DNA from: Natrinema sp. DC36
GTDB lineage: Archaea; Halobacteriota; Halobacteria; Halobacteriales; Natrialbaceae
Length of the DNA stretch: 64,000 bases
NCBI RefSeq assembly: GCF_020405225.1
Contig: NZ_CP084475.1
Span: 62,001 to 126,000 of the forward strand
Direction of reading: 5' to 3'
The notes beneath the pieces were generated by a model. The model did no database searches. It worked only from the letters and a program-made list of their open reading frames with translations, and was not told where the DNA came from. Both the position numbers and the translations under genes were made by a program. This document shows positions 6,767-18,805 of the stretch, one piece after another (position 1 is the stretch's first letter; each line of letters opens with the position of its first letter).

Positions 6767-7732
6767 AGCCTTGTTTAGACGCGGAACCAGCATATTTATT
6801 TCGACAATAATTCAGCGAAACAGCCACTCAGAGACGTGCATACGTACCTTTTTCCGCCTCAGGATTCCTCACTCCGTTCGGAACCGTTCGGCGCAAAAAT
6901 CTACGCTAAAAAGGCCGCCTTCGCTGACTTCGCCCGCTTCGGCGGTGAACTGCTCACTGCATTCGCAGATGCTCGTCGCGGTAACGTCTTCGCCTGTACT
7001 GCCGATGTTAGAGAGCAAGTTCGACATTTCTCACAGTTACTTTCAGAACGAGTTCTCGAAACTGTCCGAACCATGTTCGAGCCCGGAGCGTGTCACCGCA
7101 CCGCTGCTTGAGCGCAAGAAGACGGCCTCAACCATTGACCGCCGGTAATAGACATCATCGTCATGGCGAGCTTTGTGCACTATGTCAAGCGGATAGAACT
7201 ACCCGGTGTTTGATCACTAGCCGAACATCGGCCTCCCGAAATTCTTCACGCAGGTCGTCCCAGTCATGCCCATTATCAGCAGTAACGGTCTGTAGTCGGT
7301 TGAGATTCCGCGTGAGTACCTGTCGCCCGATGTGGGTGTCGTGCGGCTGTGTCATCGAACAGTGAATGTCCAATACAGTACTGGTTTCGCAGTCTACCAA
7401 CGCTGTCGTCTTGACCGATCTGAAGGTGTAGTGTGTCCGATTTGCGTAGTGGCGGCTGCAGAATGCCGGTCGAAGCCAGTACATCGATAGCCTGCATGTT
7501 CCTGACATCGTGAAGGTTAGCAGAGAGTCGCAGGAGAGTACACCAGACTGTTATCTTGAGTTGCTGCTTCCGTGCGCAGACGGTCGTGAAGTCCGGTAGT
7601 TCGCTCAGTTCAAAATTCATTTGAGACCATCTGTGAAGCGCGAAAAACGAGAGGGGACACTACTTGGGTTGACTCAGAGGGCAGTTAGTTCACCGGAGTG
7701 AGTCGTTCTCTCCGGCGTCTAAACAAGGTCTG
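6767..7732 (-). mobile_element. Degenerate IS5-family insertion sequence
   Basis: Ends are bounded by 14-bp perfect inverted repeats (CCTTGTTTAGACGC at 6769-6782 and its complement at 7715-7728). A 6-bp direct repeat ACTTAC lies outside both (6761-6766 and 7733-7738), a plausible target duplication. The minus strand encodes an IS5-type transposase in at least three frames: LPDFTTVCARKQQLK and LRLSANLHDVRNMQAID (7276-7620), then YANRTHYTF, VKTTALVDCET, HCSMTQPHDTHIG and TADNGHDWDDLREEFREADVR (7185-7508), then a C-terminal part down to ~6900. The frameshifts make it inactive. A second, deleted copy is at ~24400-24900. Confidence 0.8.
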
Positions 7733-13474: not shown

Positions 13475-14341
13475 ATGTACAAGAACATCCTGTACCCGGT
13501 CGACGACAGTGAGGACTCGAGCGAGATTCTACACCACGTCGGTGAACTTGCGAACTGGGAAAACGCAACGATTCATCTCCTGTTTGTCGCAGATACGACG
13601 CGCGACAGCGTCACTGTCGTGGAAAACAGGGTGGTCGACGCACTCGTTGAGGAAGGTGAAGACATCGTCGAGGAGGCAAGCAAGACACTGTGCACGCTCG
13701 GTGTTGAGTACGAGACTGATGTCGTGCAGGGGAATCCAACGCCCACAATTGTCGAGTACGCCGACCAGTACGGGCATGATTTGATCGTGATGTCAACCCA
13801 TGGGCGAAAGGGGGTATCACGGTATCTCCAAGGCAGCGTCAGCGAGAAAGTTGTCCGTCTCTCCACGGTCCCCGTCCTCACCGCGAGAATGCAGCCCGAC
13901 GAGCAGCTGACGTTCCCCTACGAGAATGTGCTCATCCCAACGGATGGCAGTGCTAGCGCAACCCGGGCAGCGCAACATGGATTGGCACTCGCGGAGTCGC
14001 TTGAAGCAACCGTGCACGTCCTCTCCGTCGTTGATAACGCGTCGCTCGGCCTCGATATTCGGTCTGTCTCCGGGAAGGATCACGAACAGGCAGCAACGGA
14101 AGTCGTCAAGGAAATCATCACAGATGCGGAGACACATGGTGTCACCGAAACAGTACAACATGTCGAACATGGGGATCCTACGGAGGGAATTCGCGACTGT
14201 ATCGACGCCAACGACATCCACGTTGTCGTGATGGGGACGACAGGAAGACGCGGCACGGATCGAGTCCTCCTCGGCAGCGTCGCCGAAAAGACGGTCCGCT
14301 CTACACCAGTGCCCGTGCTCACGATCGGTGGAACAGAGTAG
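13475..14341 (+). CDS. Universal stress protein, tandem Usp domains
   Basis: 288 residues with two Usp folds (about 1-140 and 148-288). Each has an N-terminal nucleotide-contacting start (YKNILYPVDDSEDSS; YENVLIPTDGSASA) and an ATP-binding G-2x-G-9x-G[S/T] motif (GRKGVSRYLQGSVSEKVV; GRRGTDRVLLGSVAEKTV). It is therefore an ATP-binding-type Usp. It is monocistronic, with a short AT-containing leader (GTATAAC about 20 bases upstream). A related N-terminal fragment, MYEDVLFPFDGS, is at 17525-17664. Confidence 0.92.
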   Translation: MYKNILYPVDDSEDSSEILHHVGELANWENATIHLLFVADTTRDSVTVVENRVVDALVEEGEDIVEEASKTLCTLGVEYETDVVQGNPTPTIVEYADQYGHDLIVMSTHGRKGVSRYLQGSVSEKVVRLSTVPVLTARMQPDEQLTFPYENVLIPTDGSASATRAAQHGLALAESLEATVHVLSVVDNASLGLDIRSVSGKDHEQAATEVVKEIITDAETHGVTETVQHVEHGDPTEGIRDCIDANDIHVVVMGTTGRRGTDRVLLGSVAEKTVRSTPVPVLTIGGTE

Positions 14342-15536: not shown

Positions 15537-16802
15537 ATGACAGATCGGAATCGACGATCATTCGTAACGGCTGTTGCAGCAGCTGGAACACTTGGCCTTT
15601 CTGGCTGTCTCTCACAGTTGCGACAATGGCGGGGAAACGATAACACGTCGAACCAATCACCATCGAACGAAGACTCTACTGGATCTGGTGGCACTAACGG
15701 ACTATCGAAGCTTCCCGGGGAATCAATCGAGAACTTTGAGACTCTCGACGAATGGAACGCAATGATCGACGCTGGTACTCTCAAGGCTGGGACGGCTGAT
15801 CCGTATGGCGGCTCGCAGTCGGCAAAACTCACAGCGAGCGAGGACACGGAATATGCAGCGATCTACAAAATATTTGATGGCCAGGATCTGAGTGGGAAAA
15901 ATCTATCTCTCGCAGTGAAATTTACCGGACGTCAGCAACTCCGACTCATGCTCGAACTGTTCGCACCGAACTCACGTAACGTACACGTGTTACATCGGAC
16001 GCTTGTCGGGCCGGCCGATCGGTGGGTACGTGTTGACTTCGGTGCCCATCGGATTGAAACACAGCCCGACTTGGAAAACGTCCGGCAGATTCGGGTGACT
16101 GCTCGCCGCCGTGGTAATACGTCCGGTTCGATCGACTGCCAAGTCGACGACCTCCGGACTGTCGACCGTCCGAAGACGGGAAAAGTTATGCTCTTGTTCG
16201 ACGGGACCCTCGACGAACACTATGCGCACGCGTTCAAGCAGATGGAATCCTACGGCTATGCAGGTGTCGAGGCAGTTATGCCTGAAGCCATCGGTCGAGA
16301 CGACAGACTTACGATGGATCGGCTTACGGAGATGAATGACGCAGGTTGGGATATGGCAGCCAGACCACGAACTGGCGCGCACTTCCTCCACGAATATTCT
16401 CCCGAAGAGCAACAGGAAATGATCCAGTGGACAAAGTCATTTCTCGAAAGTCGTGGCTTCGAAGACGGTGCACAACACTTCGTCACACCAAAGAACGTAC
16501 TCAGTCCGACTGCTCGCGATCTCGTCACGGAACACCATGAACAGGCGTTCCGATTCGGTGGGTGCCCAAATGGGTTACCGCTTACGGATCCACACAACAT
16601 TGGATTCCTCTCCGGCAGTGCTGGGGATGAAACGAGAACGTATATCGATTATGCTGCACAGTACGGCCAGCTCGTAGTATTGAAGTTTGATTATATCGGC
16701 GGTGAAGATGGGATGAGCGAACAGGCATTCGAACGCGTTCTTAAATATATCGACGGACAGGATGTCAAGGTCGTGACTGCGACCGAACTGTTAGAATCGT
16801 AA
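15537..16802 (+). CDS. Tat lipoprotein, polysaccharide-deacetylase-like
   Basis: 421 residues. The N-terminus RNRRSFVTAVAAAGTLGLSGC is a twin-arginine signal with a haloarchaeal lipobox (Cys24), followed by a Ser/Thr/Asn/Gly-rich linker, so the protein is probably exported folded and lipid-anchored. A beta-rich, carbohydrate-binding-like part follows (about 65-205), then a (beta/alpha) region about 215-420 resembling NodB-type deacetylases (KVMLLFDGTLDEHYAHAFKQ, GYAGVEAVMPEAIG). The canonical TFDD and HxxxH metal motifs are not clear: LLFDG replaces TFDDG, and ARPRTGAHF stands where the His pair is expected. It may be a non-canonical or inactive family member. Confidence 0.72.
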   Translation: MTDRNRRSFVTAVAAAGTLGLSGCLSQLRQWRGNDNTSNQSPSNEDSTGSGGTNGLSKLPGESIENFETLDEWNAMIDAGTLKAGTADPYGGSQSAKLTASEDTEYAAIYKIFDGQDLSGKNLSLAVKFTGRQQLRLMLELFAPNSRNVHVLHRTLVGPADRWVRVDFGAHRIETQPDLENVRQIRVTARRRGNTSGSIDCQVDDLRTVDRPKTGKVMLLFDGTLDEHYAHAFKQMESYGYAGVEAVMPEAIGRDDRLTMDRLTEMNDAGWDMAARPRTGAHFLHEYSPEEQQEMIQWTKSFLESRGFEDGAQHFVTPKNVLSPTARDLVTEHHEQAFRFGGCPNGLPLTDPHNIGFLSGSAGDETRTYIDYAAQYGQLVVLKFDYIGGEDGMSEQAFERVLKYIDGQDVKVVTATELLES

Positions 16803-16976
16803 TAACAATCGCCCACAGTTTAAAACACGGTATCTCAATTACGGAGGGGTGAGACGATATTTACCTCGATCACTGATGAAACAGGATGAGTGTTTTCAGT
16901 CACTATCACAAGGTGGTTCCGTAAACTACCCTACTTCGCTCGTTGAGGGGAGGGCTTTGATGTGGACTCCCGGCAA

Positions 16977-17520
16977 TCAGTCCCTAGTAATAGGCTGGTG
17001 ACTCTTGCCGTTCAACGCCCCACCATTCACACGCACGTCTACTGGTGTCGAAGGAAATCGGAGATTTTCTGACCATTGGAAAACTTCGTTTTCCAAGACG
17101 TCTCCGCCCCCCGACGTGGGCGAGGAACGGAGTCTGTGGTGCCGCTTCCGGGCGTATCGTAGCCCGATATTTTTCGCTGTGTTGTAGTCTGCGTTAACCT
17201 CATACCCGCACTTCTGGCACTGAAAGAGTTCGCCCTCGCGGTTGTCGCGGTGCGTGAACCCACAGTCCGTCCGAGAACAGCGTTGGGATGTGTGGTTCGG
17301 CACGACCTGCTTTGCCGTGACGCCACGTTCCGGGGCCTTGTACTCGACGTACTCGAATAGACGCCGAAACGCCCAGATGTGGTGCTACTTCGCCTATGGA
17401 AGCCGTTTGCGGATGTCTGTTAGGTCTTCAAACACGATTACGTCGCAGTCGTGTTCGACGGCTTCCGTGACAATTTCGTTAGCGACGGTGTGGCGCTCCT
17501 TGAGGTCGGAGAAACCACCT
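16977..17520 (-). pseudogene. IS200/IS605 TnpB C-terminal remnant
   Basis: The minus strand encodes the RuvC/zinc-finger end of TnpB: NEIVTEAVEHDCDVIVFEDL (catalytic Glu strand), then after a frame break [41 protein letters not shown] and a tail [11 protein letters not shown]. The N-terminal half is gone and the remainder is frameshifted near 17390. Inserted residues FSDHWKTSF (plus-strand reading of the region) interrupt the tail relative to typical copies. The element's right end and former omega-RNA region would lie at ~16900-16980. Confidence 0.75.
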
Positions 17521-17524
17521 GTAT

Positions 17525-17664
17525 TATGCTGAATCACGCGTGGCATCCGCGACGAACAGGACGTGAATCGTTGCGTCGGCCCAGTGAGCGATGTCTGTAG
17601 CGTGGTACAGGATGGCTGCCGCGCCGTTGCTCCCGTCAAACGGGAAGAGAACGTCCTCATACAT
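17525..17664 (-). pseudogene. Usp N-terminal remnant truncated by the TnpB fragment
   Basis: About 46 residues from ATG at 17664: MYEDVLFPFDGSNGAAAIL, then DIAHWADATIHVLFVADATRD, closely matching the start of the Usp at 13475 (ELANWENATIHLLFVADTTRD). It then runs straight into TnpB sequence. Only 3 bases before its start codon lies one copy of the target duplication of the MITE-like element at 17678, so both ends of this gene are damaged. Confidence 0.7.
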
Positions 17665-17667
17665 AGT

Positions 17668-17928
17668 CCCATAACAGCCGTGTTTAGGCGCGAAAATTCG
17701 AGAGCAAGAAGGTCTACAGGCCGAGAATAGACACACAGAGGTTAGAAATAGAATCGCCATCGGGAAACTGGTCTCTCTAATTTCAGTTCTGCAGCCGTTT
17801 TATCGAGGTTGGAGGGACACCATCGCCTCGACCATGGATCAAAACTTTCGACGAGGTTCCGTATGGAGAATCAGCATCGAGTCGCAGCATCGCTCTCACT
17901 AGCGTCTAAACAAGACCTCCCATAACAG
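17668..17928. mobile_element. 241-bp MITE-like element with 10-bp target duplication
   Basis: An exact direct repeat CCCATAACAG occurs at 17668-17677 and 17919-17928. Immediately inside are imperfect inverted ends (CCGTGTTTAGGCGC at 17678, complement of TCTTGTTTAGACGC ending 17918) that match the ends of the IS5-family element at 6767-7732. The 241-bp interior has no transposase-like frame. This is a non-autonomous derivative, presumably moved by that IS5-type transposase (inference). Confidence 0.75.
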
Positions 17929-18127
17929 AGTTCGATAGCACATCGCTATTGGCTTTGCATCCTTGCAGTAAGTGGAAGTGCCTTTCTGTCCTTAACTCCG
18001 TAGTAAAGCATTCACGCTTACCGGCCGGACGACTTCAAACGTCTCCGTCAGGCGACACTGAGTGTCACTATTGACTGAAATACGAGAAAGAGAAGGGCTC
18101 ATTAGCCAGTAGTGTGAGTTTCAGAAC

Positions 18128-18805
18128 ATGGCATCGTGGAAACGGGATTTTGCAAGCGGGATCGTCGTCCTCGGTCCTATTCTCATTACGCTCTACGTTA
18201 TCTATTGGCTCTATGGACTGGCCGCTGGTCTGACACCGGGGCTAATTCTTAACGCCGACACACTTGAGCCGCTCATTTCGGGCTCAAGCGCGTCTGCTGA
18301 GCAAATACGCGAGCAAATAGCCCAATTTTTCCGCGTAATCACCGCGCTGACTGTGTTTGCCATCCTGACGTTTTCGATCGGGTATCTTATGCGGACGACC
18401 ATCGGTGGGCTGGTCGAACGACTCGTCGACAACCTAGCGAATCAAGTGCCTGTGATCCGACTCGTCTACAACGCCTCGAAGATGGCCGCTGAGACGGCCT
18501 TCGGCGAGCAGGAATCGCTCCAGAAGCCGGTCAAGATCGAGACCTGGGAAGGATTACGGATGACGTCCTTCAAGACCGGAAAGGTGACTGACGACGGCCG
18601 CGAAGTCTTATTCTTGCCTACCTCGCCGAACATCACGACGGGCTACGTTGTCGAAGTCGAACCCAGCGAGATCACCGACCTTGATGAGAACGTCGAAGAC
18701 GCGCTGACGCGCGTGCTCAGCGGTGGGTTCGGTGACGCAAACCATCGCGATATGGATGTCGACATCTCCATCGACGAAGCGAAGACGAGCAGGACCGACG
18801 ACTAA
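18128..18805 (+). CDS. DUF502-family membrane protein
   Basis: 225 residues. There is an N-terminal TM (FASGIVVLGPILITLYVIYWLY), a loop, a second TM (VITALTVFAILTFSIGYLM), and then the family's cytosolic beta domain with VPVIRLVYNASKMAAETAF and VLFLPTSPNITTGYVVEVE. This layout is typical of DUF502 proteins of archaea, bacteria and plants (LIKE-COV). The tail is strongly acidic. It is monocistronic. No biochemical role is firmly known; a membrane-organising role has been proposed in plants. Confidence 0.88.
   Translation: MASWKRDFASGIVVLGPILITLYVIYWLYGLAAGLTPGLILNADTLEPLISGSSASAEQIREQIAQFFRVITALTVFAILTFSIGYLMRTTIGGLVERLVDNLANQVPVIRLVYNASKMAAETAFGEQESLQKPVKIETWEGLRMTSFKTGKVTDDGREVLFLPTSPNITTGYVVEVEPSEITDLDENVEDALTRVLSGGFGDANHRDMDVDISIDEAKTSRTDD

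Follow-up and report, generated by a model that had tools for sequence, protein, structure and literature searches.

Judged from its sequence, the element at 17676–17917 of the window is a true MITE insertion with IS5-family ends. The window is the whole 64,000-nucleotide stretch of Natrinema sp. DC36 that was analyzed (C4:62001–126000 of a 5.10-Mb genome in seven contigs). The 242-bp MITE was very probably inserted by an IS5-family transposase supplied in trans, probably that of the lineage called group B below, at the start of a dead Usp gene. Mobilization in trans is what we infer from its ends, its duplication and the empty sites, and the element is a further example of an already known type. 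The features concerned are as follows.

6767–7730, minus strand: broken IS of 964 bp in the same TIR group, with a broken IS5-type transposase and imperfect 9-bp flanks
16977–17303, minus strand: TnpB-like remnant lying downstream of Usp, with a Cas12f1-like TNB domain (PF07282)
17524–17664, minus strand: Usp remnant, stopping after the first 46 codons that follow its ATG (17664), read from the frame and truncated alike in the C2 segment
17667–17675, no strand: left TSD copy TCCCATAAC, 9 bp, present once in the C2 and C3 empty sites
17676–17917, plus strand: non-autonomous MITE, 242 bp, delimited by the family alignment and by equal lengths in other genomes
17676–17691, plus strand: left TIR AGCCGTGTTTAGGCGC, two changes from the family form GGCCGTGTTTAGACGC
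17792–17808, plus strand: central motif CAGCCGTTTTATCGAGG, the best conserved interior block of divergent members
17902–17917, minus strand: right TIR GGTCTTGTTTAGACGC, one change from the family form GGCCTTGTTTAGACGC
17918–17926, no strand: right TSD copy TCCCATAAC, 9 bp, from the C2 and C3 empty sites

The first-pass annotation had reported an exact 10-bp duplication around a 241-bp element. The 10-bp repeat CCCATAACAG is indeed found at 17668–17677 and 17919–17928 and nowhere else in the window, and the exact repeat extends to 11 bp (TCCCATAACAG, starting at 17667 and 17918). Nevertheless, relatives and empty sites fix the true boundaries, and hence the register, at 17676–17917: the TSD is 9 bp long, and the element, which is MITE-like, transposase-free and bounded by IS5-family ends as described, measures 242 bp. 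Comparison with the empty site in related strains had been proposed as a check; within this genome the empty site was found twice, in paralogous segments on C2 and C3. On C2 the left flank matches 64762–65036 and the right flank 65028–65960; on C3 the matches are at 262764–262799 and 262684–262772. The element is absent from both and the flank matches overlap by exactly 9 bases, which identifies TCCCATAAC as the TSD and 17676–17917 as the element. Since TCCCATAAC is succeeded by AG in both empty sites, the extra AG on the right is native sequence and the AG on the left represents the degraded first two bases of the element itself. By this comparison the last AG of the 11-bp repeat is a coincidence.

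A direct repeat of at least 10 bp is unremarkable on its own in this window, which holds 105 exact repeats of that length at offsets of 150–1099. This abundance is what could favor a chance repeat, with the 242 bp ancestral here and lost elsewhere. Such an origin is extremely improbable, as in both empty segments the junction falls exactly on the 9-bp repeat, and family members occupy unrelated sites, each with its own duplication. Among the 105 repeats, only the TCCCATAACAG pair has inner inverted ends agreeing at 12 of 16 positions, the runners-up reaching 11. The window segment differs from the empty C2 segment at 91 of 1004 aligned sites (9%), with five indels, and the insertion postdates the separation of these duplicated copies. 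The duplicated material is a multi-gene segment present on three replicons with 91–96% identity (window 15537–18805, C2:62500–67500, C3:176000–180500 and C3:259500–265500).

The MITE assignment draws on several properties. At 242 bp the element is shorter than about 500 bp and has neither a transposase nor a conserved reading frame; its 16-bp TIR is common to ISs of groups A, B and C; a 9-bp TSD is found in the element and the ISs alike; and the family occurs in several copies, five each in genomes G017 and G073, singly elsewhere and once here. The two TIRs of the window copy are identical at 12 of 16 positions (12–16 of 16 in relatives) and carry three substitutions relative to the family consensus, two on the left and one on the right. 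With a single copy in the genome and these three end changes, the recent movement that had been read from the perfect duplication is not borne out; the window copy looks degraded and may now be immobile. A coding interior was discarded, as no open frame is common to the family. Variable columns by codon position number 30/26/32 of 61/61/60 and pairwise differences 210/157/205, which is not clearly three-periodic. A structured RNA interior found no support: it is chiefly the pairing of the TIRs that makes the folding energies conspicuous, and interior z-scores ranged from 0.20 to −2.25 against mononucleotide shuffles in 7 of 19 members.

In the corrected register the minus-strand ATG at 17664 lies 2 bases from the TSD and 11 from the element. 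The placement just upstream of a Usp start was thus right, and the 3-base gap given earlier is correct for the coordinates then used. By eye, the Usp remnant resembles the intact Usp at 13475–14341, in which PF00582 is found, and past its stop the frame continues into the TnpB-like remnant. The empty C2 segment aligns across the Usp/TnpB junction, with extra deletions in the TnpB part. As this empty paralogue has the identical truncation, Usp was broken before the MITE arrived. The promoter displacement suggested by the first-pass annotation consequently has no bearing on a working gene: on the evidence of the C2 paralogue, the insertion deprived none of its promoter, Usp being already truncated. 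A regulatory insertion, bringing or breaking a promoter of the downstream Usp frame, might be suspected from the distance of only 11 bp to the ATG; it is highly unlikely, given that the truncation of the frame predates the insertion and that visual inspection of the filled and the empty site showed no TATA-like box at an appropriate spacing in either. Taken singly, the insertion is ordinary: an aging MITE in front of a gene that was already dead.

The proposed search for further copies found no second one in the host and did find relatives in other genera. In the host genome the only full-length match is the window copy, the 14 other matches being short. Twelve of the 125 genomes of the host's family (own included) match at E ≤ 0.01, several by their ends only. 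Across the class, 5 of 391 genomes (own included) match at E ≤ 1e-6, all in the host's family. Full-length relatives are present in G119 (86% identity), G017 (five copies, 79–82%) and G094 (76%). G015 and G053 have interrupted or incomplete copies; G093 and G073 hold the ends with a diverged interior, and the other matching genomes short matches only. Relatives that can be named are those of Halovivax sp. KZCA124, Natribaculum longum CP095395 and plasmids of Natronococcus sp. CG52 and AD-5. They lie in other genera, measure 240–243 bp and have the 16-bp ends and a 17-bp motif at the center in common. The 19 aligned members are 240–242 bp long, and their pairwise identity is 41–100%, with almost constant ends; the family TIR is GGCC(G/T)TGTTTAGACGC, and 11 of the 19 have a TSD matching at 9 of 9 bases. 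In seven divergent members the central motif CAGCCGTTYTAYCGAGG averages 75% identity compared with 45% for the remaining interior.

In a scan of genome contigs, one matching contig was labeled as an uncultured spirochaete MAG. Viral contigs gave 0 matches to the pattern GTGTTTAGRCGCGRRAATTC. The literature searched, mostly titles and abstracts with parts of PMC3119063 and PMC10969869, holds in those portions no description of the MITE family, its palindromic target or its fixed lengths; within it, the terminal sequence TTGTTTAGACG had one match, in a paper on pine wilt disease.

For candidate partners, ISs with the 16-bp ends and a 9-bp TSD were grouped by transposase. Group A ISs are 978–979 bp long. 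Group B ISs measure 934 bp and those of the sister groups B2 and B3 979 bp, with 62–63% identity to A, and groups C and C′ (934 bp) have 55–56% identity to A. For groups A, B and C, a single representative was assigned in each case to NF033579 (IS5 family) and PF01609. The autonomous partners thus carry the IS5-family transposase and make 9-bp TSDs, whereas the window element has no transposase. The sub-group to which these ISs belong is presumably IS903-like, with ends starting GGC and 9-bp duplications. The target of IS903 shows symmetry.

The ends of the IS at 6767–7730 match those of the MITE, as had been noted, although the IS ends at 7730 and group-B ISs fit the sub-terminal sequence better; it is about equally near several IS groups. 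Within this broken IS, 6840–7003 is repeated at many C1 sites with 77–91% identity and is unrelated to the transposase. That the MITE is an internal-deletion derivative of this IS or of another IS in the host is very improbable: its ends do match ISs over 13–25 bp, but the extracted ISs have no interior similarity past the ends, the matches listed stop at 28–41 bp, and the MITE interior is instead common to MITEs of other genera. With no extracted IS carrying that interior, origin by deletion from an IS was rejected.

Group-B ISs have a 9-bp TSD and an intact transposase that scores above cut-off for PF01609 and NF033579. The 934-bp group-B IS is intact in a congener, while the host has only broken copies. 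Over sub-terminal positions 17–40 of both ends, the MITE agrees with group B at 27 of 48 positions, compared with a median of 16 over the tested ISs, and the bases adjoining the right TIR (17902–17917) agree with group-B IS ends. At one end, the copies of G119, G017a/b and Natribaculum match group B over 28 bp at 93%. A PDB sequence match of the group-B transposase to TAL effectors was weak, had no qualifying stretch and was dismissed as spurious. On the replicon of the MITE and about 73 kb from it, C4:152644–154591 (L059, 645–2592) holds an interrupted head-to-head inverted pair of group-B copies; the remnant is closest to group B, its arms are about 950 bp long, and an identical foreign fragment splits each copy. 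The pair could be real or an assembly artifact.

Target sites were scored by comparison of the flanks with TGCTGAATA-N9-TATTCAGCA (maximum 18); distinct sites were included when their duplication agreed at 7 or more of 9 bases, and about 26 tested IS loci that gave no end pair are absent from the count. Median scores were 15 for group A (n = 14), 13.5 for C (n = 14) and 15 for C′ (n = 9), while B, B2 and B3 together scored 1–7 (n = 7). All seven group-B sites scored 7 or less, compared with 2 of 37 A/C sites (Fisher p ~1e-6), and L163, one of those two, is out of register. Over these insertions the palindrome is a preference of groups A and C, and group B appears without it. The target sequence can thereby separate transposase lineages with identical terminal repeats, palindromic in A/C and not in B. 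The 242-bp MITE class has a median score of 15 (n = 16, range 2–17) and the 141-bp class 13 (n = 24); scores of 7 or less occur in 4 of 16 MITEs versus 2 of 37 A/C sites (p = 0.06). The window insertion scores 2 of 18 (random window sites have a mean of 4.35, sd 1.83) and lacks the A/C target signature.

These data bear on which lineage placed the MITE. A group-A or group-C transposase acting at an off-consensus target is a possible but rather unlikely source. It would share the TIR and the 9-bp TSD with the MITE, and group A is intact in the host, with two identical 979-bp copies on C2 encoding a 286-aa transposase, the only intact full-length one in a protein search of that genome. Other MITE copies occupy A/C-type palindromes, and the two A/C sites scoring 7 or less make a stray A/C insertion conceivable. 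Nevertheless, a score as low as that of the window target (2 of 18) falls in a range reached by 2 of 37 A/C insertions, and the sub-terminal bases of A and C fit less well than those of B. The group-B 934-bp lineage is therefore favored, with modest confidence, as the mobilizer, because similarity between its ends and those of the MITE continues past the 16-bp TIR on both sides, neither its insertions nor the window insertion follow the A/C palindrome, and broken copies are located on the replicon of the MITE, about 73 kb from it; the assignment builds on seven insertions and short sub-terminal matches. As most relatives sit in the A/C palindrome, at least two transposase lineages have probably mobilized the family.

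For the window insertion, the MITE would have contributed only the ends, and a DDE transposase of the IS5 family, provided in trans, would have recognized them. The transposase would join these ends to target DNA cut with a 9-bp stagger, and the two copies of TCCCATAAC would result from repair. Such cut-and-repair chemistry is established for DDE elements. The target was the start of an already truncated Usp beside a TnpB-type remnant, in a segment carried by three replicons.

The host genome has 16 palindromes at three or fewer mismatches, compared with 0 for the reversed control. Unoccupied examples of TGCTGAATA-N9-TATTCAGCA lie at C2:33607, C1:533675 and C3:238881 of G000 and at 13 more places. 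Of 10 examined with their 250-bp surroundings, six resemble one or more of the others, which places some of these palindromes in a larger dispersed repeat. ISs that target repetitive extragenic palindromes are reported in PMC1525189; groups A and C likewise enter a palindrome also found unoccupied. In the present family the palindrome is no more than preferred, and group B, nearest the window MITE, does without it.

The MITEs of Haloquadratum walsbyi (Dyall-Smith et al. 2011, PMC3119063, consulted in part) resemble the present ones in being short and non-coding, in depending on a transposase supplied in trans, and in sharing ends and duplication length with an IS. In one case described there the matching transposase survives only as broken copies, as group B does here. 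The HqIRS families of that article were compared by their description. Discrete sizes and a palindromic target, found here, are undescribed for the H. walsbyi MITEs in the portions covered.

Elements with the family ends fall almost entirely at 139–141 and 239–243 bp, each class accompanied by minor sizes 10 bp below it. In a selection of 10 genomes, inward-facing TIR pairs of less than 300 bp, counted by hand among the matches listed, measured 140 (at least 1), 141 (at least 11), 231 (at least 1), 240 (at least 3), 241 (at least 6), 242 (at least 8) and 244 bp (at least 1). A class-wide scan of 391 genomes used exact 11-bp ends at spacings of 120–180 and 192–252 bp, with 181–191 outside the range. 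The longer range gave 16 places, at 230, 231 (2), 232, 239, 240, 241 (2), 242 (7) and 243 bp. The shorter gave at least 56 by hand count, at 131 (at least 1), 139 (at least 3), 140 (at least 13) and 141 bp (at least 39). Among the matches listed for the 391 genomes, none fell at 120–130, 132–138, 142–180, 192–229, 233–238 or 244–252 bp. By interior similarity, 67 distinct sequences formed 11 clusters, three of the 141 class, four of 230–232 bp and four of 239–244 bp. A 131-bp member and one 230-bp member have a perfect 9-bp TSD, and elements of those sizes therefore did transpose.

The ratio of indels to substitutions was 7:660 in MITE pairs versus 5:91 in the duplicated flanks (p = 0.011), for a sample of 17 of 18 pairs of the 141 family (one more than 45% different was skipped) and five chosen 242 pairs, with the flanks a small neutral reference. 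In the 141 family (36 sequences) one insertion, in L274, is offset by a deletion. A low indel rate alone was rejected as the cause of constant length, the MITE ratio lying below that of the flanks; the fixed lengths are explicable in part by common descent together with a low indel rate. The phase vector of 12 hand-chosen family modes peaked at 10.0–10.1 bp (R 0.86), with 0.81 at 11.0 and 0.31 at 10.5; none of 20000 draws from a uniform-length null was as high, a null that is too easy given shared ancestry. AA/TT periodicity gave no usable helical repeat, with peaks at 11.5–11.8. Helical phasing near 10.05 bp is a candidate explanation that fits the lengths.

A speculative and, on balance, unlikely reading is that transposition is size-quantized (about 141/241 and 131/231 bp), perhaps by helical phase, with an interior free to vary save for the motif and a target that records the mobilizing lineage. 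Paired ends might need to lie on the same helix face, with a helical repeat near 10.05 bp. Goryshin, Kil and Reznikoff reportedly found in 1994 that IS50 transposition depends on DNA length. Its two narrow size classes, strongly diverged interiors and additional sizes 10 bp below each class make the family a natural system for asking whether end pairing limits the length of short transposons. Both the length and the target question could be addressed with purified ends and transposases or with a haloarchaeal plasmid assay.

Other elements with similar ends were observed along the way. In G211, from another family of the order, 31 places match the 141-bp class, 10 of them among the matches listed, in an apparent burst of copies. 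An 880-bp element of G017 (C1:4695730–4696609; L057, 649–1528) has like ends, an 8/9 TSD at a palindromic target and, in place of the transposase, a 278-aa frame without a Pfam match; it is possibly a passenger-gene transposon moved in trans. At G005:C5:4560–5039 (L117/L236), a 241-bp MITE, apparently with an 8-bp duplication, is nested in one of about 231 bp with similar ends.
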